Assembly (NCBI GenBank): GCA_900318955.1
Contig: ONMJ01000002.1
Coordinates: 54,923-118,922 of the forward strand
Reading direction: 5' to 3'
DNA from: an uncultured Bacteroidales bacterium
GTDB lineage: Bacteria > Bacteroidota > Bacteroidia > Bacteroidales > UBA932
DNA length: 64,000 nt
The notes under the pieces are model-generated. The model was not told the DNA's origin. It worked only from the letters and a program-made list of their open reading frames with translations, and made no database searches. Shown here in pieces: positions 12,865 to 64,000 of the stretch. Each line of letters starts with the position of its first letter. Position 1 is the stretch's first letter. The position numbers and the translations under genes were made by a program.

Positions 12865-12865
12865 T

Positions 12866-13888: not shown

Positions 13889-13903
13889 GCCGAAATTACT
13901 ATT

Positions 13904-15163: not shown

Positions 15164-15188
15164 TAATGCATCTATTATATCTATTCCA

Positions 15189-16996: not shown

Positions 16997-16997
16997 T

Positions 16998-44305: not shown

Positions 44306-44315
44306 TTATTTGAAA

Positions 44316-44957
44316 ATGAAAGTAAGAACTATTCTTCTCGTCGCCCTTGGTGCGGCTGTTATTCTAACTTCAGCAAGGCCGAAACCTAAACACATTGCAG
44401 GCTATGACGGCATCGTTATCTCCGGTGCCCTTGAAAACGTACTCGACTGGGAGTCAATTTCTTCCGACAAAAAAATCAAGTATGTCTACTTCGATATCCA
44501 GGTAGACTCCGCGTCCCTTGCCGACACTTCGGCTATCATCAAGAACGTCTCACTTGCAAGGGAAAAGGGGCTGAAAACCGGCATGAGTTTCGTCTTCAAT
44601 GACGCTGTGAAGAGCGTCTACTGGATCAAAGAATACCTGACAACCATCTCTCCGAAAAACAGCGACATTACACCTATCGTCGCTATTCCTGAGGAGAGCG
44701 GATACGACCGTAAGGTTGTCCATCGCTACGCCCAGGTCTGGGCAAACGTCCTCAAAAAATTCTATGGCGAAGACCCTATTCTAAGGGCCTCCCGCGACGA
44801 TTGCCGCGCTTATCTCGCCCCCGTTCTTACGACCCACTACCGCATCTGCCTCCTGAGCGACGAACCGTTCGGCTACATGATCCAGCACACAAAGCCCTAC
44901 GCCCGCACCCTCGGCACCGGCATCCAGGCCTTCCCTACTTTCTTGACAGGGGAATAA
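44316..44957 (+). CDS. Exported GH25-like protein, catalytic residues apparently lost
   Basis: A 213-aa protein with a signal peptide (MKVRTILLVALGAAVILTSA). The rest follows the GH25 muramidase layout: DGIVISGALENVLDWESISSDKKIKYVYFDIQVDSASLADTSAIIKNVSLAREKGLKTGMSFVFN aligns by eye with the family's GIDVS..QG.IDW..V...I.FVYIKATEG.....F..N...A..AGL..G.YHF. The acidic residue of KATEG is replaced (DIQVDSA), and the first Asp sits in DGIV. It is probably a non-catalytic relative that may bind cell-wall or surface glycan. Start is the ATG at 44316, 10 nt after the preceding gene. Confidence 0.5.
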   Translation: MKVRTILLVALGAAVILTSARPKPKHIAGYDGIVISGALENVLDWESISSDKKIKYVYFDIQVDSASLADTSAIIKNVSLAREKGLKTGMSFVFNDAVKSVYWIKEYLTTISPKNSDITPIVAIPEESGYDRKVVHRYAQVWANVLKKFYGEDPILRASRDDCRAYLAPVLTTHYRICLLSDEPFGYMIQHTKPYARTLGTGIQAFPTFLTGE

Positions 44958-45097: not shown

Positions 45098-45131
45098 TTT
45101 TCACACGAAAACAGGCGAATTCGTGTGAAAA
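45098..45131. repeat. Left hairpin repeat flanking the Rpn-family gene
   Basis: TTTTCACACGAA (45098-45109) pairs with TTCGTGTGAAAA (45120-45131) over a 10-nt loop. The whole 34 bp recurs in direct orientation at 46257-46290 with about four changes; the 17-bp core CAGGCGAATTCGTGTGA is identical in the two (45112-45128, 46271-46287). Confidence 0.75.
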
Positions 45132-45244
45132 TAGCTGCCGCCGATAATGGCTTGAAGAGTTCGAACAAGAAAAAAAAGATAAAATATTCGTCAAAAAACC
45201 TTAAGACAACACCATGGGGGCTGGTTTTGAAGGGAAGGAGACGT

Positions 45245-45252
45245 TATATTTG
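45245..45252 (+). promoter_or_regulatory. -7 promoter element of the Rpn-family gene
   Basis: TATATTTG (exact TAnnTTTG), 50 nt before the ATG at 45302 and only 4 nt before the start of a terminator-like hairpin. Confidence 0.6.
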
Positions 45253-45256
45253 TCGG

Positions 45257-45288
45257 TGCCGGAAGAGGGTCTTCCGGCATTGTTTTTT
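45257..45288 (+). terminator. Attenuator-like hairpin in the leader of the Rpn-family gene
   Basis: TGCCGGAAG (45257-45265) and CTTCCGGCA (45271-45279) make a 9-bp stem with a 5-nt loop, followed by TTGTTTTTT (45280-45288). It lies between the -7 box and the start codon, so most transcripts should end there unless something prevents hairpin formation or termination. Confidence 0.7.
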
Positions 45289-45301
45289 AAAACTTAGATT
45301 T

Positions 45302-46165
45302 ATGAACGACTTACCTATTATCGGGCGATATGCCCGAATCATCATGGACCATTGGTTCAAAAGGACATTCGGCACGGAACCGAACAAGGATCTTCTCATT
45401 ATGCTTCTGAAAGAACTTATTCCCGAGCATGACATCAAGGATCTTACCTATGTTCAGCAGGAGCATATCAATCCATTTCCGGGGAAGAAGAATGCTCTGA
45501 TCGATGTGGAATGCGTTGATTCCGACGGGACCAGATTCATTGTCGAGATGCAGGTTGCAAGGCAAGACTATTTCTTTGAGCGAGCAATTTTTTATTCGAC
45601 CTTCGGTGTCCAGCAGCAGGTTGAAAGGAGCAGTTCGTCGGACTATGCTTTTCCTGCGGTATATTTTATCGGACTCATGGATTTTTCCCTTCATGAAGGC
45701 TCGGACAAGGTACTGTATCGATACTATTTTCGTGAGTGGGAGACCGGAGAAATAATGACGAAACGCCTTCAATTCGTGTTTCTGGAGCTTCCGAACTGCA
45801 AGAAGGCTCTGACACCCGAAGCGACTCTGCTCGACAATTTCTGCTATGCCATGCACAACATGGAGCATCTGACTGACCGTCCGAAGGAACTGAAAGAAGA
45901 GATTTTCAAACGCTTGTTCAAAACGGCGGAAATTGCTACCTTTACACCCGAAGAACGGATCAAATACGAAAATGACATGACAACGGAGCGTGACATAAAG
46001 AATTATATCTCCTATGCTGAGAGGAAAGGACGAGAAGAAGGACGAGAAGAAGGACTTTTAGAGGCCGCAAAGAAGATGCTTGCCGAGGGTCTAAGCGTTG
46101 AGATTGTTGCGAAGTGCACAGGACTATCAGAAGAGCAGATTGAGGACCTGAAAGTCATAAAATAG
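45302..46165 (+). CDS. Rpn-family recombination-promoting nuclease / PD-(D/E)XK transposase-family protein
   Basis: A 287-aa protein of the PD-(D/E)XK nuclease family transposase group (PF12784). NALIDVECVDSDGTRFIVEMQV contains the core acids D68 and E82-x-Q84; RAIFYSTFGVQQQVERSSSSDYAFPAVYFIGLMDFSL is the next family block; the C-terminus has a REEGREEGLLEAAKKMLAEGLSVEIVAKCTGLSEEQI helix typical of Rpn proteins. Rpn proteins nick DNA and promote recA-independent recombination. The open frame extends upstream to 45125, but that region holds the promoter and attenuator, so ATG 45302 is the start. A relative ends the window (63421). Confidence 0.88.
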   Translation: MNDLPIIGRYARIIMDHWFKRTFGTEPNKDLLIMLLKELIPEHDIKDLTYVQQEHINPFPGKKNALIDVECVDSDGTRFIVEMQVARQDYFFERAIFYSTFGVQQQVERSSSSDYAFPAVYFIGLMDFSLHEGSDKVLYRYYFREWETGEIMTKRLQFVFLELPNCKKALTPEATLLDNFCYAMHNMEHLTDRPKELKEEIFKRLFKTAEIATFTPEERIKYENDMTTERDIKNYISYAERKGREEGREEGLLEAAKKMLAEGLSVEIVAKCTGLSEEQIEDLKVIK

Positions 46166-46421: not shown

Positions 46422-48533
46422 CTATGATCCTACTTCGAGATCAAGTTCTGTCTGATTGAAGTACTCGTTGTTGAGGTCATTGATACGAATCTTAGTAGTG
46501 TTGCTGCCTGCAGCTAGACGGGTCTTGAACTTGCAAGGGAAGGCTGTCGTGTACTCGTATGTAAGACCGTTCAGCGTAGCATAGTCATCATAAGTGATGG
46601 TCTTCAAGAAGTAGTAGCTGTTCTTACCCGTTGTAAATGCTGAAGGGCCGCTCTTTACAGGAAGTGCAGAGACTTCATGCTCGACATTCTCGGAATCCGT
46701 ATATGTATACGGAACACTGTAAATACCATTGTTCTGAGCTTCAATCTTTATCTGGAGCGGGAACATATCACGAGGAAGAGCTTCGGGGAGCTGAATGGTG
46801 ACAGTCACATCCTGTCCCATTGCGTCAGCTGTCATCTTGGTAACCGAAGAAGCGGTAGATCCTGTTTCGAATTCCTGCTTCTCCATGACAGTGAAGATAA
46901 CGTCACGATAGAGAGCCGTCATACCGGCTACCTGACCGAGGACCCTCACTTTTCCTTTCAGTACCTTGCCGGTAACAGAAGGCTTGACAGTAACAGTGAC
47001 AGTTGCATGATCGTCTTTGTTGTTAACTTGATAGACAACAGGAGTACCAACAGAGGCGATAGCCTGCTCATAATTACCTTCAGTCATCATAGTAGCAGAG
47101 ATAGTGACGGTCTTACCGCCGGCAGCAGCAGATGTTGCTCCATTTGTAACAACGACTTCTGAATTGCCTGCAATCGGATAGAAATAGAAATCAATATCGA
47201 ATGACTTGCTGGCTCCGATTGATGTATTTGACATCGGGCTCACCTTAATGTTGGACTTTCCGTTACCGATCTCGTCAAGCATTGCTGTCGCGACATTTGC
47301 GGAGACATCACCGAGCCAAGGTCCTGCATAAGCAGCAGCAGGGGTAGCATAATGCTGTTCCGAGACAATGTCTTCCAACTCAAAGTTATATTGGATATTC
47401 CTCAAGATAGGCATATAACCATCTTTACCCTTGAACACGACCTTGTAGAATTTAGTCTGACCGCGAAGGGCCTCATCAACCGTCGCAATATTCTTCCATT
47501 TCACCTCGAGCATTGCTCCAGACTCAGCAAAGCCAGTCGAATAGCTAGGGACAGTCCTCTCATACATATAATCAAAGTCACCGGGTTCCAATTTCTTATT
47601 ATCCCAATCTACACCGGAGGAGAGAACCTGTGAATTGACATATCCCTCATAAGCCGCAGTAACTGCTCCTGCACCGGTAGCAGTAGTATAGACAGTATTA
47701 TAACCTGCAGTAGTAGAATAGGGAGCTACAGATCCTGAAATCGGAGTATCAACAAGGCAGAAATTCTCAAGCGTAAACGGAGCGTCTTCATTGGCGGTGA
47801 AGGTCACCTTAGCAAAGTTACGAATAAGCTGGACATTATCAAGAGCCGGAATATCCTCGGCGACATAGTCCTGGTCAGCATCCGGCAGCATTGCTCCTTG
47901 GTCATCCTCATAGTCCGTCATTACATATTCACCATTTACTACTTTCGGATGCACCCCACTCACGCGAATCCTCTGCCAGTAGGCAGCATACCCATCGCGC
48001 GAGTAAAGGGTAGGCATGAGCTCAGCCTCATATTTGACAGGGAGAGGATTCTCAAGAGTATAGAGATTCCCGTCCTTATCGCAGGCACCTACCATGAATT
48101 CTAGAACAAGGGGATCATTCGAGAGCGGGAGGAGAACCTCATACACATATGTATATGTCTTGGTAATAGTTGCTCCCGTTTCTTCATCAATAGCAGGGCC
48201 GGTGTAGTCATGCTCGATCGTCTCGGCGAGTTTCGCCTTAAGATAATGCTGAAGCTGACCTCCAATAGTCTCGTCATCACCGCCACCGAAGACAGCGACA
48301 AAGAGATCTCCGTTTTCAATATTGGGCTGCTCGCCAATCTGATGCTGCGCACGGGTAGGGGTAGCATATAGGGAAGCCTCGGGGACATTCACCTTGAAGG
48401 TTACGAGAGCCATGTCTCCTTCGCTCGGAGCTACTGTAGTTGTCGGACGAACAGACTGCTCATGAGTCATTTCCTTGGTGCAGGCCGCAGCAAAAATGAC
48501 GGCTACAGAAAGTATGTAAAATATCTTTTTCAT
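46422..48533 (-). CDS. Fimbria-associated surface lipoprotein (paralogue of the 59389 gene)
   Basis: About 703 aa, with a lipoprotein signal (KKIFYILSVAVIFAAAC; Cys18 from this start). A PTRA motif about 43 residues after the Cys is a possible protease-processing site as in type V pilins. VQLIRNFAKVTFTANEDAPFTLENFCLVDTPISGSVAPY, a YLPILRNIQYNFEL-like block (YMPILRNIQYNFELEDI) and VTVTIQLPEALPRDMFPLQIKIEAQ are shared with the 59389 gene of the opposite operon. It is the last gene of the left operon, followed by a terminator. The start is the second ATG (MKKIF), giving a normal signal peptide. The exact structural role (minor subunit or accessory adhesin) is not evident. Confidence 0.75.
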   Translation of the reverse strand: MKKIFYILSVAVIFAAACTKEMTHEQSVRPTTTVAPSEGDMALVTFKVNVPEASLYATPTRAQHQIGEQPNIENGDLFVAVFGGGDDETIGGQLQHYLKAKLAETIEHDYTGPAIDEETGATITKTYTYVYEVLLPLSNDPLVLEFMVGACDKDGNLYTLENPLPVKYEAELMPTLYSRDGYAAYWQRIRVSGVHPKVVNGEYVMTDYEDDQGAMLPDADQDYVAEDIPALDNVQLIRNFAKVTFTANEDAPFTLENFCLVDTPISGSVAPYSTTAGYNTVYTTATGAGAVTAAYEGYVNSQVLSSGVDWDNKKLEPGDFDYMYERTVPSYSTGFAESGAMLEVKWKNIATVDEALRGQTKFYKVVFKGKDGYMPILRNIQYNFELEDIVSEQHYATPAAAYAGPWLGDVSANVATAMLDEIGNGKSNIKVSPMSNTSIGASKSFDIDFYFYPIAGNSEVVVTNGATSAAAGGKTVTISATMMTEGNYEQAIASVGTPVVYQVNNKDDHATVTVTVKPSVTGKVLKGKVRVLGQVAGMTALYRDVIFTVMEKQEFETGSTASSVTKMTADAMGQDVTVTIQLPEALPRDMFPLQIKIEAQNNGIYSVPYTYTDSENVEHEVSALPVKSGPSAFTTGKNSYYFLKTITYDDYATLNGLTYEYTTAFPCKFKTRLAAGSNTTKIRINDLNNEYFNQTELDLEVGS

Positions 48534-48557
48534 AATCAATTCAATCTATTCGTTTTA

Positions 48558-50882
48558 TTAGAAAATATAACCAAGCCACTGGGTTGCAGCAGTTCCTGTC
48601 GGCTGACCGTTATTGCCATACTTAGTAGATCCCCAGTACCACTCGTCGTAGACGCAGCGCATATAAGTTTGGAATCTCTCGCCATTAATAACTAACCTAC
48701 TATTGTTTTCAGTAGCATCTGATAGATTAATAGCAGCATTTGAATGATTTCTATCAGTATAAGGCTTTCCACCATAGCCGTAGTGACCACCAGCCCAATA
48801 TACGTCATAATAAGCTTGTCCGCCTGCGTGATACTCTGGCGAGAATAATTCAGGAATATGCTGGTAATCGGAAAGATTGATCAAGAAGTCTATTTCAGCT
48901 ACAGTAGGTATTCTCCAACGCCCTGCAGGATAGCCGTTTTCCTGATAACTTGCACAGCGTTCTTCCGCTCTGTCATAATTGCGAATAGGGTCGGTCGCTC
49001 CCCAAGAAGAAGCAATACGAATTACAGGAGCAATAATATTCTGAGATGTAGAGGAAACGGCTTTATAATTTGTCTGAACCGTATTATCTCTACCACCATT
49101 AGTACCTGCTTGATATCCAAGATAATTATACCGTAAGGTTCCTCCTCGTGGATCACCAATTATAATATTTTCGGAGACACCCGCAACGCTGTAGCCAACC
49201 GGCAGAACGCTTACAGAAACTACATATTGATTGTAATTGCTATTAGCAGCATTTCCCGTATTGATTGTCCCTAACTGGTTAGCAGTATTAGTCCCTTGAT
49301 TATTATATGCGTTCCCGCTATTATATCTTCCTCCGCGATAGTTGTAGCCTTGCCATTGGCTGCCAGTACGATATGTATAGCTATTTACATACGCATACCC
49401 ATTACTTGGATCCCTCTGAGCATAGATCGGAGGATACTGAGTAATTGTTACAGTGACAGTCTTTGAAAGGCCGCCTTCAGTATGCTTGATAACCACAGTA
49501 TAATTGATTGGAGTACAATCAAAGTTGGGATTTCTGACTCTATTGTTTCCTGACATAGTATACATATTATTGTCAAGCACATGTGTCAGCCTGAAACTGG
49601 ACTTGCCGTCCGCTCCTACTGTAACTGTAGGTGTAACAGTGACATCATAGGGAACGCCGTTGCCATTAGTCCCGTAAAGATTCTGCTTGGTACCAGTGGA
49701 GCTGACAATCTGGATATTGTTGCTTGAAACAACCGGGACATCGACATAATCAATTCCGTAGATATCATAGTGCTTCACAGGGACATCGAGATACATAGCG
49801 CCTTCGACGCTGGACTCGATCTTCTCGGGAGCCCACCAGTCAGCCACATAGATGTGGTCGGTAACGAGAGCCCAGTCATCCTCAGTGCCGCCGATAACGG
49901 AGACATCGACTGTCAGCTTATAGATCTTATTCCTCTTGAAAGATCCGAGCTCCGGAAGAATAATCTTGTAATAGAAGTTATTCTGGCCCTTCTTCTCGCA
50001 TACCCAGGGGATAAAGATTTTATAATACGGAGCAGTCACGTCAGAGGTCTGATACTGCTGAGGATAAGTGTAGACAGAGGGAATCGTCCAGGAAGTGTAC
50101 CCTTCCTTTGCAGCAGGGGTAACCTTCGTCGGAGCATACTGAGCTGTGCTGAAGTAGTTTGTCTTCTCATCGAAGGCAACAGGCTTGGCTGCGACCTTCC
50201 CGACCTTCCTGGCATTGAGGAAATTGACCCACATAGGACCGAAGACCGGAGTCCAAACATTCTCCGCAGCGTCTTTGAATTCGTTAATTACATTGAAATT
50301 GAGCTCGAGCTTTGCAGCAGCGCGCTTAAGACCGATTGTGAATGTCTTGCTATCTGCTGTCTTGGAAGGAGAGAGATAGGTAAGGCTGCCATCCGCATAG
50401 GAATCCATCACAAAGGCAGTGAGAGTTCCGCTTAGATCGATGTTGATATCAAGATCGAGAATATCAGCAAGAGTCGTCTTTGTGATTTCCGAAGGATAAT
50501 TGGCTATGACATAGACATAGGATGCATTCTGAAGAGGATTTCCTTCGTCAGAAACATCGAACTTATGCTCATAGATATTGGTTCCTGCCGAGACAAGACC
50601 GCTTGCATCTGTGCCGACCTCGAGGCGCTCATGACTAATGAGCGTCGTGCCCTCAGCGTCCGAGAAGAAGAAGAAATCCGCATGGGTAAGAGTATTCTCA
50701 ACCCCAACTCCGGGGATGACATTACCGGTCTCAGTAACCGTAGCCCTGGTTTCCATCTCAGAGGTCTGAAGACGGAGGGTAACGGTAGCATCGGAATTGT
50801 CAACACCGACTTGTTCTTCAGCGCAGGATGCTGCAAAGGCCATCGCTGCAGCTATAATTATATAGGTAAAGTATTTTTTCAT
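48558..50882 (-). CDS. Fimbrial tip-like lipoprotein with C-terminal lectin/FGE-like region (paralogue of the 56815 gene)
   Basis: A 774-aa lipoprotein (AASC, Cys20; METRA with Arg46). The N-terminal 330 residues look like a fimbrillin-type beta domain (KRAAAKLELNFNV, IPSVYTYPQQ, YYKIILPEL). A Tyr/Asn/Gly-rich segment follows (about 505-590). The last 170 residues (IRIASSWGATDPIRNYDRAEERCASYQENGYPAGRWRIPTVAEIDFLI ... RFQTYMRCVYDEWYWG) resemble lectin-like or formylglycine-enzyme-like folds in Bacteroidota surface proteins. The same three-part design is present at 56815. It is likely the pilus tip adhesin of the left operon. Confidence 0.75.
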   Translation of the reverse strand: MKKYFTYIIIAAAMAFAASCAEEQVGVDNSDATVTLRLQTSEMETRATVTETGNVIPGVGVENTLTHADFFFFSDAEGTTLISHERLEVGTDASGLVSAGTNIYEHKFDVSDEGNPLQNASYVYVIANYPSEITKTTLADILDLDINIDLSGTLTAFVMDSYADGSLTYLSPSKTADSKTFTIGLKRAAAKLELNFNVINEFKDAAENVWTPVFGPMWVNFLNARKVGKVAAKPVAFDEKTNYFSTAQYAPTKVTPAAKEGYTSWTIPSVYTYPQQYQTSDVTAPYYKIFIPWVCEKKGQNNFYYKIILPELGSFKRNKIYKLTVDVSVIGGTEDDWALVTDHIYVADWWAPEKIESSVEGAMYLDVPVKHYDIYGIDYVDVPVVSSNNIQIVSSTGTKQNLYGTNGNGVPYDVTVTPTVTVGADGKSSFRLTHVLDNNMYTMSGNNRVRNPNFDCTPINYTVVIKHTEGGLSKTVTVTITQYPPIYAQRDPSNGYAYVNSYTYRTGSQWQGYNYRGGRYNSGNAYNNQGTNTANQLGTINTGNAANSNYNQYVVSVSVLPVGYSVAGVSENIIIGDPRGGTLRYNYLGYQAGTNGGRDNTVQTNYKAVSSTSQNIIAPVIRIASSWGATDPIRNYDRAEERCASYQENGYPAGRWRIPTVAEIDFLINLSDYQHIPELFSPEYHAGGQAYYDVYWAGGHYGYGGKPYTDRNHSNAAINLSDATENNSRLVINGERFQTYMRCVYDEWYWGSTKYGNNGQPTGTAATQWLGYIF

Positions 50883-50894
50883 GGCTATTCCTGC

Positions 50895-52517
50895 TTATTC
50901 GGTGGGATATAAAGAACTGTTAACGATAAAGGTGTGGTATCCACGGCCGCGGTCATAGAGCTGGGTCTCGGAGTCCACATTGAACTTGGTCCCGGTCCTA
51001 TTGGCACCGCTATATACATAGGTGTGGAAATAGAACTGAGCCGTACCCGTTCCGGTGTAAGTAATCTCGAGCTGGACATCAGTACTTCCCTTGACATTCA
51101 CGGGTCCCCAAAGCTGATCGGGGTCAACCGTTGTATCGTCTGTAAGGGCTGGAGAGACATTCTTGATGACAAAGCCTTCAGGAAGCTCCACGGGCTCAAC
51201 CTCCCAGCTTCCGCCGGCAGGGAGCATGACCTTGAAGAAGACTGTCACAGTATGTTCGTTCTTGAAATACCACTGCTGACGATAGGGATCCTTCTGACGA
51301 TTGTCATCAGTTATAGGACCTCCGAGATGAAGATCTGTGTCGCCATTGAGAACACCCTCTCCGCTAACAGAGAACTGGGTGACCTGGGGGAATTCAGCAG
51401 CGCTTCCCGCGATTGTCACCTCATCCCAGCCGAGAACCTCGAGCTTGAGGGTGAAATCGTTGAAATAAGCACTGGTCGGGATAATAAGTCCGTTGATAAC
51501 ATACTTCTTGCAAGGAGCGAATTTCATGACCTCATATGCCGAACCATTCTTCTTCTTGAGGGTCGCACTCTTGACGATCTCGGAAGTAACTCCACCGACA
51601 GTGGACTCAATGACGAAGGTTGCGACGATACCGGTCTCGATTGGAGCTGTCAGAACGGTAAAGGTCACATCGTCGGTATTGGAGACCGTTGGGTTGCTGT
51701 CAAAAGTCGCTACAACAGAAGTGCTTCCCTCTGAAATTGCGGCGAATGTGCTAGCTCCGCCGGCAGCGATTGTAGCTGCAACCTTACCTGCAATCTTTGT
51801 GGTATTGTCTGCGGAAGCGAGGGTGACCTTCTTGAGAGTATAGTTTCCGGCGGACTCAGTCTTGATATTGAACTGGAAAGCTGTGAATGCAGCGTAGAAG
51901 TCCATCCTGTTGGTCTCGCCTGAGCTGAGAGGCTTCGCGCCTTCAAGGTAAGAGAGCATAACGGCATTCGACATGTCGGGAGTTGCTACCTTGCCGCTGA
52001 CGGTGCTCTCCTGAGAGTCCGAGATAGAGTAAGTTACAGCTGAAGCTGTCGGCTGCTTGCCTTCTCCTTTCTCTACTGCGCTGGCAGGATAGATGCCCCA
52101 GAAATTGGCAGGATTCTTATCTACGAAGACAAGACCGTTTCCGGCATCATCTCCAAGATTGGCTTTACTCTCGGTATCGCTGGCCTTCTGAGGGTTCTCT
52201 ATAGTATAGGTAGCGATATTCTTCGCAGCAGCACCGAATTCCGGATGACTTCCTCCGGCACGGACAGTTGCGGTGTTACTCCAGATGAGCACCTCATCGC
52301 CTGCCTTCCAATCGATTCTCTCCCATACGAGCTTGCCATCCTGAAGGGTGCCTTCTCCCGTATAAGAAGTCTTGGTGTCGATTCTTGTCGAAGCAGACCT
52401 TGCGGTGAATTTGATAGTGCCATTACCATTATCAATGGTAGAGGGGTCCTTCTTGCAGCCTGCAAGTGCGAGGAGGATTCCCATGCCGCAGAGGGCGATG
52501 CGTAAATAATTCTTCAT
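50895..52517 (-). CDS. Fimbrillin-like lipoprotein, probable major subunit of the left operon
   Basis: About 540 aa with lipobox LAGC (Cys21 from this start) and a TR motif at Arg45 (SASTRIDT), arranged like type V pilin precursors. LVWERIDWKAGDEVLIWSNTA and MDFYAAFTAFQFNI match the right-operon subunit at 54150 (WERIDWKIGDIFRVYSS; FYPYFTAFEFEV). The C-terminal 160 residues (ending in NVDSETQLYDRGRG) recall the end of the separate right-operon gene at 55255, so this looks like a fusion of the two. Three ATGs are available (52535, 52523, 52517); an AAGGAGG sequence sits 8 nt before the third, which is therefore preferred. Confidence 0.8.
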   Translation of the reverse strand: MKNYLRIALCGMGILLALAGCKKDPSTIDNGNGTIKFTARSASTRIDTKTSYTGEGTLQDGKLVWERIDWKAGDEVLIWSNTATVRAGGSHPEFGAAAKNIATYTIENPQKASDTESKANLGDDAGNGLVFVDKNPANFWGIYPASAVEKGEGKQPTASAVTYSISDSQESTVSGKVATPDMSNAVMLSYLEGAKPLSSGETNRMDFYAAFTAFQFNIKTESAGNYTLKKVTLASADNTTKIAGKVAATIAAGGASTFAAISEGSTSVVATFDSNPTVSNTDDVTFTVLTAPIETGIVATFVIESTVGGVTSEIVKSATLKKKNGSAYEVMKFAPCKKYVINGLIIPTSAYFNDFTLKLEVLGWDEVTIAGSAAEFPQVTQFSVSGEGVLNGDTDLHLGGPITDDNRQKDPYRQQWYFKNEHTVTVFFKVMLPAGGSWEVEPVELPEGFVIKNVSPALTDDTTVDPDQLWGPVNVKGSTDVQLEITYTGTGTAQFYFHTYVYSGANRTGTKFNVDSETQLYDRGRGYHTFIVNSSLYPTE

Positions 52518-52535
52518 TTTCATTTCCTCCTTCAT

Positions 52536-52721
52536 TTAATTCCATTCAGCTGTGTAGTCCCCGCTCTCACCATCATTGGTAAACTCAAGGGTCTCAACTC
52601 CTTGACCCATTGTGTAGACCCCGGAGTTCTTATTGAACGACTCCTGCAGGATGTCTCTTTCGAGGCAGACCTCCACATTCTGCAAGATTTTAGGGCTTGT
52701 GAATTGTTTTTTCTTGTTCAT
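52536..52721 (-). CDS. Short peptide at the head of the left fimbrial operon (twin A)
   Basis: A 61-aa peptide, MNKKKQFTSPKILQNVEVCL then ERDIL, a variable middle, MGQGV, and an acidic Trp-containing end (YTAEWN). The first 26 residues differ from twin B (53963-54130) at only two positions. It has no signal peptide; it has a single Cys (C19) before ERDIL. Its ATG lies within the perfect part of the inverted repeat that brackets the recombinase, and its stop abuts the ATG of the next gene. Function is unknown: it may be a leader, a regulator or a small precursor. Similar short genes near fimbrial genes exist in Bacteroidales as I recall, but I cannot confirm the family. Confidence 0.8.
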   Translation of the reverse strand: MNKKKQFTSPKILQNVEVCLERDILQESFNKNSGVYTMGQGVETLEFTNDGESGDYTAEWN

Positions 52722-52738
52722 ACGTATGATTGTTAGTA
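52643..52738. repeat. Left inverted repeat of the putative invertible segment
   Basis: Pairs in inverted orientation with 53946-54041: 91 of 96 positions agree without gaps. The inner 39 bp (52700-52738) are perfect and include the 12-bp palindrome TCATACGTATGA that contains the peptide start codon; the outer part lies in the peptide coding sequence, with a perfect 41-bp stretch at its far end. Confidence 0.9.
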
Positions 52739-52779
52739 TTTTTGTCTATTACCTATTACAAAATAATCTATTGTTATAA

Positions 52780-52794
52780 TTCCGATTATCGGAA
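52780..52794. promoter_or_regulatory. 15-bp palindrome, left copy
   Basis: TTCCGATTATCGGAA, a perfect 7-1-7 palindrome 58 nt upstream of the left peptide ATG. The same site occurs at 53894-53908, 54 nt from the right peptide ATG. It is a candidate binding site for a dimeric regulator or for the recombinase or an accessory factor. Confidence 0.7.
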
Positions 52795-52814
52795 CAATTT
52801 TCAATAAAGTTGTT

Positions 52815-52832
52815 TTAGGTGCTCTTACCTAA
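52815..52832. other. Small hairpin in the left-operon leader
   Basis: TTAGGT (52815-52820) and ACCTAA (52827-52832) with a 6-nt loop, just downstream of the predicted leftward transcription start near 52841. No T-run follows. It has no counterpart on the right side. Confidence 0.4.
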
Positions 52833-52847
52833 TATACCATTAAAGTG

Positions 52848-52879
52848 CAAAATTATATCAAAAAAACTCTTTCTGCAAA
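52848..52879 (-). promoter_or_regulatory. Leftward promoter inside the putative invertible segment
   Basis: On the minus strand: TTTG (52879-52876), 20-nt spacer, TAATTTTG (52855-52848), a good TTTG-N20-TAnnTTTG promoter. Transcription should start near 52841 and read leftwards through a 120-nt leader into the left peptide and fimbrial genes. I searched 53780-53962 by eye for a rightward equivalent and found none. Confidence 0.8.
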
Positions 52880-52972
52880 CATTTTTGGAAATTTTCTCTC
52901 CTTTTTTATGCACTTTTTTCATGTGTTGTTTTAATGTTTTTTTATTCTGACACTAGTTTTTAATTTTTTTTA

Positions 52973-53779
52973 TTACCAGGTTATAACTTTCTCAACTATT
53001 TGATGTTGCTCCTCGCTTGTCTTGCGTAAATAGATCCGAGTTGTCTCGATGCTGGAGTGACCGAGTAGATCCGCAAGCAGGGCCACATCACCGGTTTTTT
53101 CCAAGAACTTTCTGGCAAAAAGATGCCGAAAGGCATGGGGATGAACCTTCGCAGGGTCGACGCCGTATTTCATGGCAAGCCTCTGAAGCTGAGCGGAAAC
53201 TCCGCGGGTGCTTATCTGATCCCCGAACTTATTTCTAAATAGCGGTCCTTTGCACCTTTTTATCAATTCCATCCACATCAGCAGCTCATTTCGAAGCGAA
53301 TCGGTCAAAAACACTCTTCTACATTTACCGCCCTTGCCAATCACGTCAATGTATCCGAGAATGACTTGCTCAGCCTTTATCCTGACGAGTTCTCCTATTC
53401 TCACCCCGGTTGTAGCAAGAACCGATACTATGAAATACCATTGAAGGTTGGATTCTCCCTTCAGGCAGCTTTTAAAAATCTCATAAGTATTGTCATCGAG
53501 TGTGTCCCCGAGAAATGAAACCTGCTGAATTTTGACTCCGTGGAGGGCCAATTTCCCCTTACCTATAAACCTAAGGTAACGATTTATCGCTCTTATCCTG
53601 ACATTTGCTGTGCTCGGGCTGTATTTCCCGAGGAGATATCTCTTATATTTTAGCAGATTAGATGTACTTACAATTTGAAACATACTATTGTATTCGTCAA
53701 CGGCAAAGCAATAGGAGCGAATAGTATTTTGGGACATTTGGCTTTTCGTAAGGTACCGAATAAAACTTTGATTGGTCAT
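52973..53779 (-). CDS. Tyrosine recombinase, probable DNA invertase
   Basis: A 268-aa tyrosine recombinase. The SAM-like N-terminal domain (about 1-88) is followed by the catalytic domain with Arg127 (TTGVRIGEL), Lys149 (IGKGGKCRRVFL), His215-x-x-Arg218 (HPHAFRHLFA), His241 (LLGHSSIETTR) and Tyr250 (IYLRKT). The short length and the IVEKVITW ending fit small invertase-type enzymes rather than phage integrases. It lies between two long inverted repeats, at the centre of two divergent fimbrial operons, so it most likely inverts the segment that contains it. Its own promoter is not obvious in the AT-rich 180 nt upstream. Confidence 0.9.
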   Translation of the reverse strand: MTNQSFIRYLTKSQMSQNTIRSYCFAVDEYNSMFQIVSTSNLLKYKRYLLGKYSPSTANVRIRAINRYLRFIGKGKLALHGVKIQQVSFLGDTLDDNTYEIFKSCLKGESNLQWYFIVSVLATTGVRIGELVRIKAEQVILGYIDVIGKGGKCRRVFLTDSLRNELLMWMELIKRCKGPLFRNKFGDQISTRGVSAQLQRLAMKYGVDPAKVHPHAFRHLFARKFLEKTGDVALLADLLGHSSIETTRIYLRKTSEEQHQIVEKVITW

Positions 53780-53893
53780 GATTTAGCGTATAATTAGGAG
53801 TCATTAAGACTATTTAATAAATAATTCTTAAAATTTATAACTAATAGTTTTTTAGTATTTCAGACTATTGTACTGGCGATTTTCAGTCTAAAC
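53780..53893. other. AT-rich spacer upstream of the recombinase, no rightward promoter seen
   Basis: The stretch is very AT-rich. I see no TAnnTTTG box on the plus strand and no convincing one on the minus strand. This asymmetry with 52739-52972 is the basis for predicting that the right operon is silent in this orientation. Confidence 0.5.
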
Positions 53894-53908
53894 TTCCGAT
53901 AATCGGAA
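53894..53908. promoter_or_regulatory. 15-bp palindrome, right copy
   Basis: TTCCGATAATCGGAA, matching the left copy at 52780-52794 (which reads the same when viewed from the other strand). The following bases ATTA are also shared in operon sense; after that the two leaders diverge until the long inverted repeat. Confidence 0.7.
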
Positions 53909-53945
53909 TTAGCAGAACAACAGTTTATTAAAGAAAAGACTAAAT

Positions 53946-54041
53946 TACTAACAATCATACGTATGAACAAGAAAAAACAATTCAAAAGCCCGACAATTCT
54001 GCAGAATGTGGAGGTCTGCCTCGAAAGAGACATCCTGCAGG
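53946..54041. repeat. Right inverted repeat of the putative invertible segment
   Basis: Inverted partner of 52643-52738 (91/96 identical). The perfect inner part is 53946-53984 and covers the ATG of the right short peptide at 53963. The 1.2 kb between the repeats contains the recombinase, both 15-bp palindromes and the only clear outward promoter. Confidence 0.9.
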
Positions 54042-54130
54042 GCTCCGTTGGACCAGACATGCGGGTGAACTCCATGGGACAGGGGGTCAACTACTTCGAA
54101 AGCGAAGACGTCTCTGACGAATGGTATTAA
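53963..54130 (+). CDS. Short peptide at the head of the right fimbrial operon (twin B)
   Basis: A 55-aa peptide, easily missed because of its size: MNKKKQFKSPTILQNVEVCL, ERDILQGS, then a divergent middle, SMGQGV and an acidic end SDEWY. It differs from twin A at residues 8 and 11 only over the first 26 residues, and shares MGQGV and the terminal EW. Its stop is 1 nt before the first ATG of the next gene. Position and sequence identical in design to twin A argue that it is a real, translated gene rather than a chance frame. Confidence 0.78.
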   Translation: MNKKKQFKSPTILQNVEVCLERDILQGSVGPDMRVNSMGQGVNYFESEDVSDEWY

Positions 54131-54149
54131 AATGAAGGAGGAAATGAAA

Positions 54150-55247
54150 ATGAGAAACACAGTTAAAGCATTCCTGCTCGCAGCAGGCGTCCTCCTTTCC
54201 CTGACAGGATGTCAGAAAGGATCCTTCGGCAAGGTTGGACAGGAAGTCAGGTTCGGAGCCATATCCGGCCAGCCTGAGACCCGTACTTCGTACAGCAACA
54301 GCAACGAGGGAGAGAAACCCGAGACTACCGATTGGGAGCGTATCGACTGGAAAATAGGCGATATCTTCCGCGTCTACAGCAGTGTCGCTGCAAGAAGCAA
54401 TGGCAGCCACTTCTCTGATTATTATGTAAACTCAGCGACCGCAGTCGGCCAGATCAGCAAGGCCGGTATCGAGAACAATGAGGCCGGCGGTCTTGTCTGG
54501 GGTGAAGGAGAGAATGATTTCTACGCTCTCTTCCCTTACAACGGATTCACAGTTGCCGAGGCGAATGGGGAAGTCTCTTCTGCGACAGCCGAGATCCCTG
54601 CAGAGCAGACTCTCACCAAGGCCAATGACGGAGAGTACTATCCGGATATGAAATATGCTTACATGCTTGCTGTCGCCAGCGCAAAAGCGAAGAGCACAGT
54701 CGAGCTCAACTTCTATCCGTATTTCACGGCGTTCGAGTTCGAGGTCTGCTCTGACAAGACTATGGATATTACTGGGTTCAAAATGATCTCCAATGACAAG
54801 GTCTCCGGTGATTCCGCAACTCCCCTCTCCGGAGAGTTCACCGCTACTCCCGCTGGAACAAAATGGACCGTAAACGATGCTCCGGAAATCTCCGACGAGA
54901 ACAGGAGCGTTACTGCTACCTTCGCTCCGATCAAGCTCACCCTTGATACTGGAGAGACTAAGACCAACACTGTCCATTTCACAGTCTTTGCCGCTCCGAG
55001 GGACCTTACTTCGATTACCGTCGAATTCACCGTAGAAGTAGACGGTGCCAAGGAGACCCGCAGCCTCTTCCTTTCCTATGCTGAAGGCAATAAGCAGGGC
55101 AAGACAGCTGGAACTCCTATCGAGTTCGCAGCTTGCAAGAAGCACTATTTCAAGGGCATGCTCGTTCCCGGATCGCTCTGGAAATATACCTTCAATCCTA
55201 CTCTCGACGAGTGGATCAATGTTGAAGGAGTTACACTTTATATATAA
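54150..55247 (+). CDS. Fimbrillin-like lipoprotein, right operon subunit 1
   Basis: About 365 aa. Lipobox LTGC (Cys21 from this start) and PETRT with Arg45 mark a type V pilin-like precursor; the distance between Cys and Arg is the same as in the left-operon subunit. Shared blocks: WERIDWKIGDIFRVYSSVAARSNGSHF and FYPYFTAFEFEV; the end (FAACKKHYFKGMLVPGSLW) matches FAPCKKYVINGLIIPTSAYF in the middle of the left protein. Start choice: ATGs at 54132, 54144 and 54150; AAGGAGG is 8 nt before the last. The first 21 nt of this region are identical in both operons. Confidence 0.8.
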   Translation: MRNTVKAFLLAAGVLLSLTGCQKGSFGKVGQEVRFGAISGQPETRTSYSNSNEGEKPETTDWERIDWKIGDIFRVYSSVAARSNGSHFSDYYVNSATAVGQISKAGIENNEAGGLVWGEGENDFYALFPYNGFTVAEANGEVSSATAEIPAEQTLTKANDGEYYPDMKYAYMLAVASAKAKSTVELNFYPYFTAFEFEVCSDKTMDITGFKMISNDKVSGDSATPLSGEFTATPAGTKWTVNDAPEISDENRSVTATFAPIKLTLDTGETKTNTVHFTVFAAPRDLTSITVEFTVEVDGAKETRSLFLSYAEGNKQGKTAGTPIEFAACKKHYFKGMLVPGSLWKYTFNPTLDEWINVEGVTLYI

Positions 55248-56814: not shown

Positions 56815-59376
56815 ATGAAGATGATGAAAAAGATATTTACATACGCAGCTGCAGCTGCAGCACTCATGATCGCAGCGTCCTGCTCCGAGGAGACTTCCTA
56901 CAACAAGGGAGTATACGAAGGCGGGGATGCAATAGCCCTCAAGCTCCACATGGACAATGGCATTGAGACCAAGTCTGACTACTCTGACGGAGTTGGACTG
57001 GAGAATGCTGTCAACTCTGTACAGTACTTCTTCTATACAGATACTACAAAAGCTCCTGTCTACGCATCAGAAAGGATTGTGAAACCGACTATGACGAATG
57101 ATAATGCCTATATCATCAGCGGCATTGCCGGACAGGACTTCCCAAGTCTCAATGTTCTCTTCCCTACAAACGGATCGAAAGTTGTCGTATTCGGTGTATT
57201 CAACTATCCCGAGACTCTCGAGGGCGACGCTCTCCAGACAATAAAAGCTAAGACTGTTGAGCAGCACTTTGCATACAATTATACTGATCCTACCTATAAA
57301 GAGAGGAGCGGATATGTGGTAATTCCAGACAGTATGGTTGGAGCAGATCCTTCAAATCCTGTCGAGAAGTATTTCGTAATGACCGGCCAGAAAGAAATCG
57401 AACTCAAAGGTATCGGTAACTACGCAGTCAACGATGTCGTGGAGATGAGAAGGCTTGAGGCCAAGTTCACCTTCATCGTCAATATTGAGGACGAGATCGT
57501 CAACACAACAAGTACGACTGAAGGAGAAGGCGAATCTGCCGTTACAACTGTGGTCACCGAGACCTGGACTCCGATTCTCAACGAGAAAAACGTCCGTATC
57601 TACCTCTGCAACGCAGACAATACCGCAGTTCTCGGCTCCCCGGATGCGTCCCCGAAATATTCTTATAAGAAGCCGTTTAATAAGCCGTCTCGCTTCAATT
57701 ATGCTCCGGTAATTATTGCTCCCGAATCAGCGACTTCTTATACTATCAACAGCCCCGAGTTCTACTCCTATCCGATGACATGGGCCAAGGGAGAAAGCAC
57801 AGAGCCCTTCGTGAAGCTCATCATCCCTTGGAAGATGGAGCAGACTACACAAGTTGGTGATGCAGACCCCGTTATTACGTACTCGACTGAAAGGGAACTT
57901 TACTACAAGGTCATGTTCCCGGAGACTGTAATCAACTCCAACAACCATTACGAGTTTACTATCACCGTCTCCCTCCTCGGTTCCGAGTTCGCTGATCCCA
58001 CTGTTACTATTCCTTCTCAGGCTCAGGTACTTCCTTGGAACAGCAACAAGAAGGTCAACCCCGTCATCTCCGATGCCAAGTACCTCTCTCTCGAGAAGGC
58101 TGAGGTCAACGATGACTTCTCTGAGACCGTTTACGAAGGCAACCCGAAAGATTTCGAGACAATCTATACAACTGGAACTACTGTTGGCTTCGCTGCCAGT
58201 GATGTTGTCACTCTCAAGCTTATCAATGTCTATCAACGGAATCTCTCCACAGGAAATACAGAGTACTTTGTACAGGAAGGAAACATAAACAATTCAGCGA
58301 TAACAACTTACAACAACCGTAATGCAAGTCCGATGAAAGGTACTGAGACTGAGTATGATGCAGGCGTTATCAACGGTTGGTTTACGGTTAACAACACAAA
58401 CCAAGTTATTGAACTCAAGCATATCCTCAACAGCGATATGACATCCCGTAACTTCGATGTCACTCCTTATACCTATGAGGTCGAGGTTCACCTTGGCGCA
58501 GTTGGGTCCGCTACCTACAGCGATGAGACCTATACCAAGTATATCAAGATCATCCAGTATCCGCAGGTGTATGTAGTTGAAAACCCGAACAGCAATACTC
58601 CCAGTGGAACAACACCTGGTAATTACGGAAAAGACGGTATTTACATTAACGGTTCCAACAGCAATAATACTACGTGGGGAGGCTATAATTTGGGCGGAGC
58701 TAATGGTATTACAAGAAATTCTGGCAATAAAAATCCTAACATGTACGTTTTGACAATTTCCGTCAGCGATAAATACATCATCGGAGATCCTAGAACAGCT
58801 TCTGTTTCAGTACCTTCTTTTGAAGGATACGATTGGTGGGAAGAAGAATACTATTCTTATTATGAAGAGGCTCCTTCTACTTATAACGATAGTGAAAAAA
58901 ATATTTTAACAAACTATCATCCTGCTAGTTCCTCCAATACAAGTAATATGATTGCTCCCAAAATAAGGGTCGCGTCTTCTTACGGTGTATGCTCAGTTGG
59001 AAACGGTGGATTAAATGGAGAAGATAGCGCTATATTAAGGTGTGCAACTTATCAAGAAGATGGCATTCCTGCCGGTCGTTGGAGATTACCAACCTTTGCT
59101 GAGGTAGAATTTATTTCTACTTTATCATCACTTGGCCGCATCCCGTATTTGTTTGGATACAATCAAGAAAGCTCATACTGGGGTCGCAATGCGTACTATT
59201 ATACGGCTAATGGAACAATTGTCGTGGAGAATAAAAGTAAGACAGTTAAACCATACTCAAACGCTCCGGTTAACTCAACATCTGTCCGCTGCGTCTATGA
59301 CGAGTGGTTCTGGGGCGATGCTACAACAAGACCAGTTGGTAAGGATACTTTCACTTGGGGTGACGAAAACTATTAA
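56815..59376 (+). CDS. Fimbrial tip-like lipoprotein, right operon (paralogue of the 48558 gene)
   Basis: An 853-aa lipoprotein (AASC, Cys23). The processing-like motif is ETKS (Lys53) instead of ETRA. It shares with the left-operon protein a fimbrillin-like front, the SYPMTW/YKVMFPE-type blocks, a DNS-rich linker (SNTPSGTTPGNYG...), YIIGDPRTASV and a C-terminal module IRVASSYG ... RCATYQEDGIPAGRWRLPTFAEVEFISTLSSL ... TSVRCVYDEWFWG. The C-terminal third is more AT-rich than the rest and differs most from the paralogue, as expected of a variable ligand-binding end. Probable tip adhesin. Confidence 0.77.
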   Translation: MKMMKKIFTYAAAAAALMIAASCSEETSYNKGVYEGGDAIALKLHMDNGIETKSDYSDGVGLENAVNSVQYFFYTDTTKAPVYASERIVKPTMTNDNAYIISGIAGQDFPSLNVLFPTNGSKVVVFGVFNYPETLEGDALQTIKAKTVEQHFAYNYTDPTYKERSGYVVIPDSMVGADPSNPVEKYFVMTGQKEIELKGIGNYAVNDVVEMRRLEAKFTFIVNIEDEIVNTTSTTEGEGESAVTTVVTETWTPILNEKNVRIYLCNADNTAVLGSPDASPKYSYKKPFNKPSRFNYAPVIIAPESATSYTINSPEFYSYPMTWAKGESTEPFVKLIIPWKMEQTTQVGDADPVITYSTERELYYKVMFPETVINSNNHYEFTITVSLLGSEFADPTVTIPSQAQVLPWNSNKKVNPVISDAKYLSLEKAEVNDDFSETVYEGNPKDFETIYTTGTTVGFAASDVVTLKLINVYQRNLSTGNTEYFVQEGNINNSAITTYNNRNASPMKGTETEYDAGVINGWFTVNNTNQVIELKHILNSDMTSRNFDVTPYTYEVEVHLGAVGSATYSDETYTKYIKIIQYPQVYVVENPNSNTPSGTTPGNYGKDGIYINGSNSNNTTWGGYNLGGANGITRNSGNKNPNMYVLTISVSDKYIIGDPRTASVSVPSFEGYDWWEEEYYSYYEEAPSTYNDSEKNILTNYHPASSSNTSNMIAPKIRVASSYGVCSVGNGGLNGEDSAILRCATYQEDGIPAGRWRLPTFAEVEFISTLSSLGRIPYLFGYNQESSYWGRNAYYYTANGTIVVENKSKTVKPYSNAPVNSTSVRCVYDEWFWGDATTRPVGKDTFTWGDENY

Positions 59377-59388: not shown

Positions 59389-61365
59389 ATGAAAAAATAT
59401 ATTTACATACTTTCTGCACTTCTGCTCTCAGCCATAGCCTGCACAGCAGAAAAAGAGTCTGTGACCCCAGAGGAAGCAAACATGGAGGGAAAGGTGACCT
59501 ACATAATGAAGGTCACCCTCCCGGAATCGATCGTCGCTACTCGCGCTACCTGGATTAGTGCCGACGAGGATGCGAACAAGCCTGTGCTTCGTAACATCTA
59601 TGTCGCGACCTTCGGTACCTCCCACTATCTCAATGACTATACCCGCGCTGTCCGCTGCGATAAGGATGGAAAGAACCTCTCTCAGGATTGGAGCGGTATC
59701 GAAAACGGCAAGACCTTCTATTTCAAGGTCACCCTTGTCGCTACCCAGAGTAAGAGAACAGTCCATGTCATCGGAAACGGTCCTGACCAGATAGACTTCA
59801 ACGCCTACGAGAGCGAGATCATGACTAAGCTCACGACTAATGACAAGGTCGGCGGCTACTGGCAGTACTTCGAGCTTTCAAACGGTACGGCAAATGCTGA
59901 CGGCTCTACTACTGATGAAGCTACAGCTGCTTTCAGCAACGTCCGCCTGATTAGAAACTTTGCTAAAGTCAATCTCACCGTTGATCCAAAAGTACAGAAC
60001 TTCACACTCACCGGATTCAATGTCTACAATACCCCTAATAGTGGTTCTTATGCTATCTGGAAGAAATCTGACAAGACATTCGTCACCGACTATGCAAGCA
60101 AGAGTTTCGATGCTCTTCTCATAGACCCTGAACTTAGAAATGGATCTGTTTCAGAAACTACAACGATGGACATGACAAAGCCTACTACTGATACTGATGA
60201 TACTGAGGAGTCGGAGTACAGTCCTTCCATCAAGTATCTCTATGAGCGTCCCGACCAAGAGAGCGACCGTCCTTATATTATTATTAAAGGAAAATATAAG
60301 GAAGAAGGTAAGGACTTCGATACAGCTGATACTTATTACAGGCTTGACTTTGTAGACCGCGATGGTAACTACCTCCCTATTCTTAGGAACTTCGAGTATA
60401 CTATAAAATTGACCTCTGTTGCAAAGAGGGGCAAAACCAATCCTCAAGAATGCGTTGCATCCAATTCCAATGTATCATCTCTTACAGAGACAGAGAGCCT
60501 TACAGACCTTGCTGACGGAGTCTCCCGTATCTATGTACAGTGGCTTAACAAAGCATATCTTGAGTCTGCTACAAGAGTTGCATTCAAATATAAGTATCTC
60601 AAAGACGCTGCTAATGATTCTGATTCATCCCCCGCTACTTTCAAGATACTAACGGGAGACGATCCTACTAACCCTGCATCATGGACTGATGTAAAAGCGG
60701 ATTCATTCACTGACGGGTCTTATGCCCTTGAAGCAATCACTATCAAGAACGGCACTGGCAACAATAATTATGGATGGGTTGACGGCGGAGAAACAGGTGA
60801 CGATGGTTGGAAAACAATCCTTTTCGATTTGAATACTCCTTCCACCACTGATCAGCTTTCTACAACTTTCCGTGTGATTGGAACGACCGCAGACGGACAG
60901 AAACTCTATAGGCAGATAACAATATTCCTTCTCCCCCAGCAGAAGTTCAAGAGCGTCAGCTGGAAAACATACGGCAGTTTCAGTGCTACCAATGAAGAAC
61001 AGAACAAAGTTGATGTCACAATAGAGCTTCCGGCTGGACTCCCTTCATCAGTATTCCCTCTAAACATTATTTTTGAGGACACAAAAAGAAAACTCAATCC
61101 AGAAGGTACAGACATGCCTGTAACATCTATTGTAGCTGGAGAGTCTATAATCGGTTCTGTGACAAGCGCAACGTACCAGTTTGAAAAGACGATATTCTAT
61201 TCAGAATATACTGAGAATAAAAAGGTAGAGTGCAAATTTAAGAGAATCTCTGACGGAAATACCGAACTTTATTTAACAACAAAACCAAAAGGAAAATATT
61301 TCCATACCGTCAATTTTACTATTCCGGAAGGTGCCGATTCAGGAGAAGTTCTTCTTAATAACTAA
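59389..61365 (+). CDS. Fimbria-associated surface lipoprotein, right operon (paralogue of the 46422 gene)
   Basis: A 658-aa lipoprotein (AIAC, Cys18; VATRA with Arg52). NVRLIRNFAKVNLTVDPKVQNFTLTGFNVYNTPNSGSYAIW, NYLPILRNFEYTIKLTSV and VDVTIELPAGLPSSVFPLNIIFED are shared with the left-operon protein, in the same order. It starts 12 nt after the tip-like gene and is followed by a strong terminator hairpin. Secreted outer-surface protein; accessory subunit or adhesin. Confidence 0.76.
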   Translation: MKKYIYILSALLLSAIACTAEKESVTPEEANMEGKVTYIMKVTLPESIVATRATWISADEDANKPVLRNIYVATFGTSHYLNDYTRAVRCDKDGKNLSQDWSGIENGKTFYFKVTLVATQSKRTVHVIGNGPDQIDFNAYESEIMTKLTTNDKVGGYWQYFELSNGTANADGSTTDEATAAFSNVRLIRNFAKVNLTVDPKVQNFTLTGFNVYNTPNSGSYAIWKKSDKTFVTDYASKSFDALLIDPELRNGSVSETTTMDMTKPTTDTDDTEESEYSPSIKYLYERPDQESDRPYIIIKGKYKEEGKDFDTADTYYRLDFVDRDGNYLPILRNFEYTIKLTSVAKRGKTNPQECVASNSNVSSLTETESLTDLADGVSRIYVQWLNKAYLESATRVAFKYKYLKDAANDSDSSPATFKILTGDDPTNPASWTDVKADSFTDGSYALEAITIKNGTGNNNYGWVDGGETGDDGWKTILFDLNTPSTTDQLSTTFRVIGTTADGQKLYRQITIFLLPQQKFKSVSWKTYGSFSATNEEQNKVDVTIELPAGLPSSVFPLNIIFEDTKRKLNPEGTDMPVTSIVAGESIIGSVTSATYQFEKTIFYSEYTENKKVECKFKRISDGNTELYLTTKPKGKYFHTVNFTIPEGADSGEVLLNN

Positions 61366-63420: not shown

Positions 63421-64000
63421 CTATAGTTTAAGTTCTTTAACCTGTTCTACGGAAAGCCCAGTGCACTTAACCACAAGGTCAATACTAAACCCTTCCGCCA
63501 GCATATTCTTAGCTGCTTCTAAAAGCCCTTTCTCCATTCCTTTCTCCATTCCTTTCTCCATCCCTTTCTCCATCCCTTCCTCAAGACCCTTCTCCCGCGC
63601 GTAGGAAATATAGTTCTGTATGTCTCGCTCCGTTGTCATGTCATTTTCGTATTTAATCCGTTCTTCGGGTGTAAAGGTAGCAATTTCCGCCGTCTTGAAC
63701 AAGCGTTTGAAAATCTCCTCCTTCAACTCCTCGGGACGGTCGGTGAGGTGTTCCATGTTGTGGAGGGCATAGCAGAAGTTGTCGAGAAGCGTCGCATCCG
63801 GTGTCAGGGCTTTCCGACAATTAGTCAGTTCGAGGAAGACGAACTGGAGACTCCCCGTCATCTCTTCTCCTGTTTCTTTTTCCCGCAGCGAGTATCGGTA
63901 AAGGACTCTGTCCGATCCTTCATGAAGGGAAAAGTCCATGAAACCGACGAAATAGACCGGCGGGAACCCATAGTCCATCGAGCTGCTCTTCTCCACCTGC
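63421..64000 (-). CDS. Rpn-family PD-(D/E)XK transposase-family protein, C-terminal part
   Basis: The frame runs off the right edge, so the N-terminus with the nuclease core is not visible. The 193 residues seen match the complete member at 45302 closely: SSSMDYGFPPVYFVGFMDFSLHEGSDRVLYRY, FVFLELTNCRKALTPDATLLDNFCYALHNMEHLTDRPEELKEEIFKRLFKTAEIATFTPEERIKYENDMTTERDI. The C-terminus has a fourfold MEKG repeat where the other copy has REEG, then LLEAAKNMLAEGFSIDLVVKCTGLSVEQV. Two related copies within 20 kb indicate a family that spreads in this genome. Confidence 0.85.
   Translation of the reverse strand, partial: QVEKSSSMDYGFPPVYFVGFMDFSLHEGSDRVLYRYSLREKETGEEMTGSLQFVFLELTNCRKALTPDATLLDNFCYALHNMEHLTDRPEELKEEIFKRLFKTAEIATFTPEERIKYENDMTTERDIQNYISYAREKGLEEGMEKGMEKGMEKGMEKGLLEAAKNMLAEGFSIDLVVKCTGLSVEQVKELKL
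63526..63573 (-). repeat. Four tandem 12-bp repeats inside the Rpn-family gene
   Basis: Plus-strand units YCCTTTCTCCAT at 63526, 63538, 63550 and 63562, which on the coding strand encode repeated MEKG. The unit length keeps the frame if copies are gained or lost. Confidence 0.9.

Follow-up and report, generated by a model that had tools for sequence, protein, structure and literature searches.

The stretch of DNA analysed here, 64,000 nt long and called the window throughout, probably carries an either/or, self-contained inversion switch in which a recombinase of the hsdS-inversion lineage selects one of two fimbrial operons. The sequence itself shows the sites, their orientation, one promoter match, two colinear operons and the kinship of the recombinase. 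Inside the segment lie the recombinase and one outward promoter match, and outside it two divergent, colinear fimbrial operons, in this order:

46422..48539, minus strand: left operon gene 3, 705 aa, 24% identical to right gene 4
48558..50882, minus strand: left operon FimD-like tip adhesin, 774 aa (NF052322, E=1e-81)
50895..52535, minus strand: left operon gene 1, lipoprotein-like, 546 aa, 30% identical to right gene 1
52536..52721, minus strand: left leader ORF, 61 aa, no Pfam or NCBIfam match
52643..52750, minus strand: left arm, 108-nt inverted repeat, covering the leader ORF start and 5' UTR
52771..52794, minus strand: left dif-like crossover site (putative), TTCCGATAA-TCGGAA-TTATAACAA, hexamer 52785-52780
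52786..53902, strand not applicable: predicted invertible segment, 1117 bp, between the two central hexamers, from the dif-like sites and comparison with related loci
52848..52879, minus strand: outward promoter match TTTG-N20-TAATTTTG(C), facing the left operon, between the recombinase stop and the left site
52973..53779, minus strand: tyrosine recombinase, 268 aa, putative invertase (Pfam Phage_integrase, PF00589, E=9.5e-25)
53894..53917, plus strand: right dif-like crossover site (putative), TTCCGATAA-TCGGAA-TTAGCAGAA, hexamer 53903-53908
53934..54041, plus strand: right arm, 108-nt inverted repeat
53963..54130, plus strand: right leader ORF, 55 aa, no Pfam or NCBIfam match
54132..55247, plus strand: right operon gene 1, lipoprotein-like, 371 aa
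55255..56808, plus strand: right operon gene 2, fimbrillin-like (Mfa_like_1), 517 aa (PF13149, E=8e-9)
56815..59376, plus strand: right operon FimD-like tip adhesin, 853 aa (NF052322, E=1e-68)
59389..61365, plus strand: right operon gene 4, 658 aa
61422..63254, plus strand: BspA-type leucine-rich repeat and Big_2 protein, 610 aa, at the end of the right gene set, operon membership uncertain

The two arms are spaced 1183 nt apart and are 93% complementary, with 100 of 108 positions identical. Without their innermost 12 nt they agree at 91 of 96 positions, including a 39-nt perfect block and an outer 42-nt perfect block. An earlier note on this DNA had described repeats of 96 bp, 91 of them identical and the inner 39 bp perfect, which agrees exactly with the mismatch map. 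It had also set the repeats on the heads of two outward-pointing operons, and so they are; more exactly, each sits on a small leader ORF. The arms are far above chance: no exact inverted match in 200 shuffles exceeded 13 nt, against 42 nt for the longest one here. Overlooked by that note were the position of the single promoter match and a second inverted pair between the arms and the recombinase, 18 nt long and perfect (52777-52794 and 53894-53911). Read outward, both copies are TTCCGATAA-TCGGAA-TTA, in inverted orientation just inside each arm.

The dif layout, as given in the quoted part of PMC2731167, consists of a central hexamer and, on either side of it, an 11-nt half-site, the two being related by dyad symmetry and their inner letters being ATAA and TTAT. 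The window sites fit this layout and these inner letters, except that the right copy reads TTAG; their outer half-sites differ (TTATAACAA and TTAGCAGAA). By its letters, then, the window site appears dif-like in form; identity with the chromosomal dif is not claimed. GATAA-N6-TTA occurs at three places in the window (18839, 52790 and 53898), the last two forming the inverted pair, and a pattern scan of the whole 64 kb places none in the 108-nt arms. Crossover most likely occurs at the dif-like site just inside each arm and not in the arms themselves; it is put at hexamers 52785-52780 and 53903-53908 because the same site form recurs at related recombinases and hsdS loci. With crossover there, approximately 52786-53902 would flip, and the arms, with leader ORF and 5' UTR, would stay with their operons. 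The earlier proposal of a flip of about 1.3 kb between the repeats is thus supported in having the recombinase and promoter inside; its crossover in the arms is probably wrong, and the predicted segment is 1117 bp. The palindromic site, searched as TTCCGATNATCGGAA, has exact copies in its own genome only at these two places, with one more place at one mismatch and none for the reversed control. The action of the recombinase would therefore be local, and an invertase acting at many sites was rejected.

How would such a switch operate? The 268-aa recombinase would join the two inverted dif-like sites (GATAA / TCGGAA / TTA) that flank its own gene, and the 1117-bp segment 52786-53902 would turn around, carrying the recombinase gene and the single outward promoter with it. 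The promoter, beside the 3' end of the recombinase gene, would in the sequenced orientation read the left operon (leader, gene 1, FimD, gene 3). Once the segment has turned, the right operon (leader, gene 1, fimbrillin, FimD, gene 4) would be read instead, with a near-equal 5' UTR: reckoned from coordinates, the distance from -7 box to leader start is 126 nt on the left in the sequenced orientation and 122 nt on the right after inversion. The arms, outside the crossover, would provide the two operons with a common leader start and with the greater part of their 5' UTR. We infer all three of inversion, promoter activity and expression of one operon at a time from this arrangement.

The Bacteroides -33 element is TTTG. 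For the -7 element, a consensus of TANNTTTGY is quoted from PMC12632263. The window promoter, which can also be written TTTG-N20-TAATTTTGC (52879-52848), is of this Bacteroidota type, as a consensus match only, and, as in an inverton, it points outward and is flanked by inverted sites. Such a match was contained in 15 of 3000 dinucleotide shuffles of the left interval, and the whole window has three on both strands together. A pattern scan of the right interval, from the recombinase to the right site, gave zero matches of this kind.

Outside the segment, three left/right protein pairs match in order, at 30%, 26% and 24% identity, and the operons are colinear paralogs. Matches to NF052322 on both sides and to PF13149 on the right assign them to Bacteroidota type V (FimA/Mfa) fimbriae; the remaining genes of the left operon have no family match in Pfam or NCBIfam. 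A PDB sequence search with three fimbrial proteins returned no match, two chance antibody matches and no match, respectively, and Rfam at gathering scores gave zero matches in the window. The genome to which the window belongs is 98.9% complete and has two FimD matches, one on each side of the segment; at E 1e-20, at least one FimD match was present in 120 of the 250 genus genomes searched. The twin-operon island is bracketed by two inverted PD-(D/E)XK transposase-type genes (45125-46165, plus strand, and 63421-63996, minus strand), 80% identical over 402 nt; the Pfam basis is the first copy, and the contig ends with the second. Further out, at 39793-42264, lies a protein that by eye is Wzc-like, with a long glycine-tyrosine repeat near its end.

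The tyrosine recombinase with all its catalytic residues that the earlier note had seen between the repeats is borne out by the Phage_integrase match and by R127, K149/K152, H215, R218, H241 and Y250, which we take to be the catalytic residues. All are invariant among 11 aligned sequences, and the reading frame is intact. By sequence, XerA and a XerC-like protein are the closest solved structures; in the NCBIfam search the recombinase falls below every curated cut-off. Its own genome holds no close sister, the other matches being partial and 34% and 28% identical. Single-protein searches of genome_contigs and viral_contigs did not find relatives. Among candidate stretches from genome_contigs, at least 534 of at least 591 encode relatives of the recombinase, and the best 80 were kept, in fetched stretches of up to 8 kb per side that are often cut by contig ends. 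Of these best 80 of at least 534, 63 have hsdS in the fetched stretch, 64 have hsdS, hsdM or hsdR, and 16 have neither, hsdS being called at each locus by BLAST from two seeds that were both Pfam-confirmed as Methylase_S. The window recombinase is 47-51% identical to relatives at hsdS loci (among the same best 80). Kinship with the hsdS-invertase lineage is thus found; hsdS itself is not found at the window locus, where the flanks are fimbrial operons.

A looser site pattern, [CG]ATAA-N6-TTA[TG], chosen after a scan of inverted pairs at related loci, occurs within 300 nt of hsdS at 57 of the 63 hsdS loci among the best 80 of at least 534 relatives, with 256 matches near hsdS at these loci versus 31 for the reversed pattern, both strands counted. 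The strict site pattern is present in four of 20 fetched loci scanned (L020, L021, L023 and L212) and absent from 16, hsdS loci included; these four matches are no independent test, because the pattern was written after viewing those sites. A quick tree of 96 rows puts five rows from hsd loci nearest to the window recombinase, whose own branch is the longest in the tree and whose place is therefore unsure. The surface-locus rows (the window, L020, L021, L023 and L221) do not form one clade: five changes are needed, at least three of them forced by starred branches, against a shuffled mean of 4.9, in a tree where long branches meet (the window recombinase with L093, and L021 with L221). On the simplest reading, surface-locus recombinases may have been recruited repeatedly from the hsdS lineage.

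Is the arrangement repeated elsewhere? One locus of the genus, L020 in genome G003, has the full anatomy of the window with other surface genes, namely fimbrillin-like and VWA proteins and no FimD. Its site, CATAA-CAGGCA-TTAT, occurs in two copies, inverted around the recombinase, and both arm and site letters differ from those of the window. Its promoter match, TTG-N20-TAATTTTGT, is confined to one side of the recombinase, which is also the promoter side in the window. The anatomy of L021 (genome G126) is partial, with three copies of the site [GA]ATAA-CGGACA-TTAT and a promoter match, TTG-N20-TAAATTTGC, on one side only; its contig begins inside one arm, and its recombinase match starts only at residue 81. 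Shuffled intervals contained such promoter matches in 24 of 2000 cases for L020 and 19 of 2000 for L021. By eye, a leader start runs into the recombinase at L021 1-1400, which may be an assembly chimera or what is left of a selector with three operons. L023 has one copy of the site GATAA-TAGGCA-TTAT, and its recombinase stands beside its operons, not between them. L023 5100-12267, together with L213 17951-19000, shows two inward-facing lipoprotein and VWA operons with a recombinase at one end; this arrangement adjoins genes that by eye resemble those at window 43250-44957, a similar neighbourhood with a different switch layout. At L221 the recombinase is downstream of an operon and the strict site pattern is absent. 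Short ORFs that by eye resemble the window leaders precede the lipoprotein genes of L020, L021 and L225.

Exact inverted pairs of at least 14 nt within 700 nt of the recombinase were present at 12 of the loci scanned (L020-L187 and L212-L222), including L020 and L021; several of the others share the form GATAA-TTCTCA-TTATGAGA and have hsdS-type flanks. Among the 20 family loci L228-L247, L234 has inverted pairs of at least 40 nt across the recombinase and L232, which overlaps L221, a 13-nt pair; the other 18 have no inverted pair of at least 13 nt there, and several of the 20 hold single dif-like cores. A separate case is L225 (genome G130), where at 3501-17087 twin divergent FimD operons surround a different tyrosine recombinase of 454 aa. 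FimD is above cut-off on both sides, and the recombinase matches Phage_integrase, with Phage_int_SAM_5 below cut-off; tblastn with the window and L020 recombinases did not recover it at E 1e-3. Its single outward promoter match, TTG-N20-TAAATTTG, stands to the right. The locus may be locked or work otherwise, because it lacks a left leader start and showed no pair of short inverted sites; a convergent selector is possible. Twin FimD genes 24 kb apart in genome G184 were set aside, no related recombinase being present in the stretches read (L226 and L227).

The opposite orientation was not found in a DNA search of 400 genus genomes, three of which had a match, the window's own included; the matches in the other two were short (158 and 171 nt) and to the recombinase gene. 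Nor did it turn up in searches with the L020 recombinase, matched in 21 of 400 genus genomes, or with the window recombinase, matched in 11 of 200 genus genomes and 27 of 398 family genomes. Closest to the L020 recombinase is that of L212 (genome G134), 93% identical over 105 aa, where the contig ends inside the gene. This short contig carries one strict-pattern site and a lipoprotein about equally distant from the two L020 operons (31.5% and 30.5%). Its DNA is 84% identical to the right side of L020 over 760 nt and 75% identical to the left arm over 251 nt; since the right side fits better, L212 has, if anything, the same orientation as L020.

Could the switch be decayed or locked, the twin operons and repeats being a remnant and the left operon permanently on? 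The opposite orientation missing from the genus and family genomes searched would suit such a history, as would a fast-evolving recombinase, the differing outer half-sites, and the twin FimD operons of L225 with their other recombinase and missing left leader start. It is nonetheless unlikely, given the intact frame and conserved residues of the recombinase and 18-nt cores that still match perfectly between operons only 24-30% alike. A live switch with its crossover within the 108-nt arms, by the recombinase or by homologous recombination, would move the leader starts as well and have the same outcome for the promoter. The arms are long and their perfect blocks, of 39 and 42 nt, would serve for this; still, the dif-like core inside them is what relatives and hsdS loci have in common, and with GATAA-N6-TTA missing from the arms such a crossover is decidedly improbable.

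A fimbrial operon duplicated in inverted orientation and then frozen, beside a recombinase that is only a passing mobile gene, would account for the two operons being paralogous, and tyrosine recombinases are frequent in mobile elements. This reading was rejected as hardly credible, because arms that are 93% identical stand beside operon proteins that are 24-30% identical, which does not fit one neutral age. Against it, too, are the same layout at L020 with different letters in arms and sites, and the relatives (best 80 of at least 534), which are mostly at hsdS loci, where inversion is known. For the inversion switch between two operons, anatomy and comparison support the either/or choice that the earlier note proposed, with the recombinase inside, one promoter match and two colinear operons; the crossover point is the part to be corrected. 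A wider proposal can be put forward tentatively, the balance tipping slightly against it: in this genus, hsdS-lineage recombinases at dif-like sites may have been recruited more than once as either/or, perhaps multi-way, selectors among whole surface-fibre operons. The conserved leader ORFs, situated immediately beyond the crossover, would offer the promoter a common landing platform wherever it moves.

If true, Bacteroidota fimbriae gain a compact, self-contained selector of the either/or kind, and promoter inversion becomes linked with a recombinase lineage known from restriction-specificity switching. With the likely crossover hexamer named, orientation can be counted in existing metagenomes, and the presence of one tip adhesin at a time per single cell becomes testable. 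Among the matches listed, no title or abstract start of an open-licence paper describes either/or promoter inversion between two Bacteroidota fimbrial operons. The parts are each in print; their combination, and the link between the hsdS lineage and the dif-like site, were not found in the open-licence literature among those matches.

Hin is a serine recombinase, and the enzyme of pilin inversion in Moraxella bovis belongs to another class than the tyrosine recombinases. The window enzyme matches Phage_integrase and is of the tyrosine family, not of the Hin type. The earlier analogy with Hin thus holds in its logic but not in enzyme class, the relatives of the window enzyme (best 80 of at least 534) being mostly at hsdS loci. 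As far as the quoted parts of the papers go, Hin of Salmonella, like the window recombinase, lies within its own segment and chooses a surface filament by inversion (PMC5903667), and pilin inversion in M. bovis is also a surface-filament choice (PMC11868660). A putative fimbrial inverton of Providencia stuartii similarly encloses its recombinase in an 844-bp segment at a fimbrial locus, but in another phylum, and two operons are not described in the quoted text (PMC5903667). At the mba locus of Ureaplasma parvum, XerC inverts DNA at short inverted repeats and so switches between two surface-protein genes that point in opposite directions; there, gene heads are exchanged and the recombinase gene, as described, is outside the locus (PMC3599477).

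Within the Bacteroidota, tyrosine recombinases act on surface genes of B. fragilis (Weinacht et al. 2004, as cited in PMC12632263), and invertons near fimbrillin and other surface genes invert promoters. The window resembles the latter in promoter inversion beside fimbrillin-family genes; those promoters serve neighbouring genes, and no choice between two fimbrial operons is described in the quoted part (PMC11892184). In Streptococcus pneumoniae, PsrA, the tyrosine recombinase of an hsdS locus, uses a 15-bp repeat for inversion, both in vivo and in vitro (PMC4948785, PMC7096588, in the parts quoted). At such loci parts of hsdS are exchanged, whereas in the window a promoter is predicted to turn. 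What the hsdS loci and the window share is a local tyrosine recombinase, inverted repeats and the dif-like core common to the relatives of the window enzyme.
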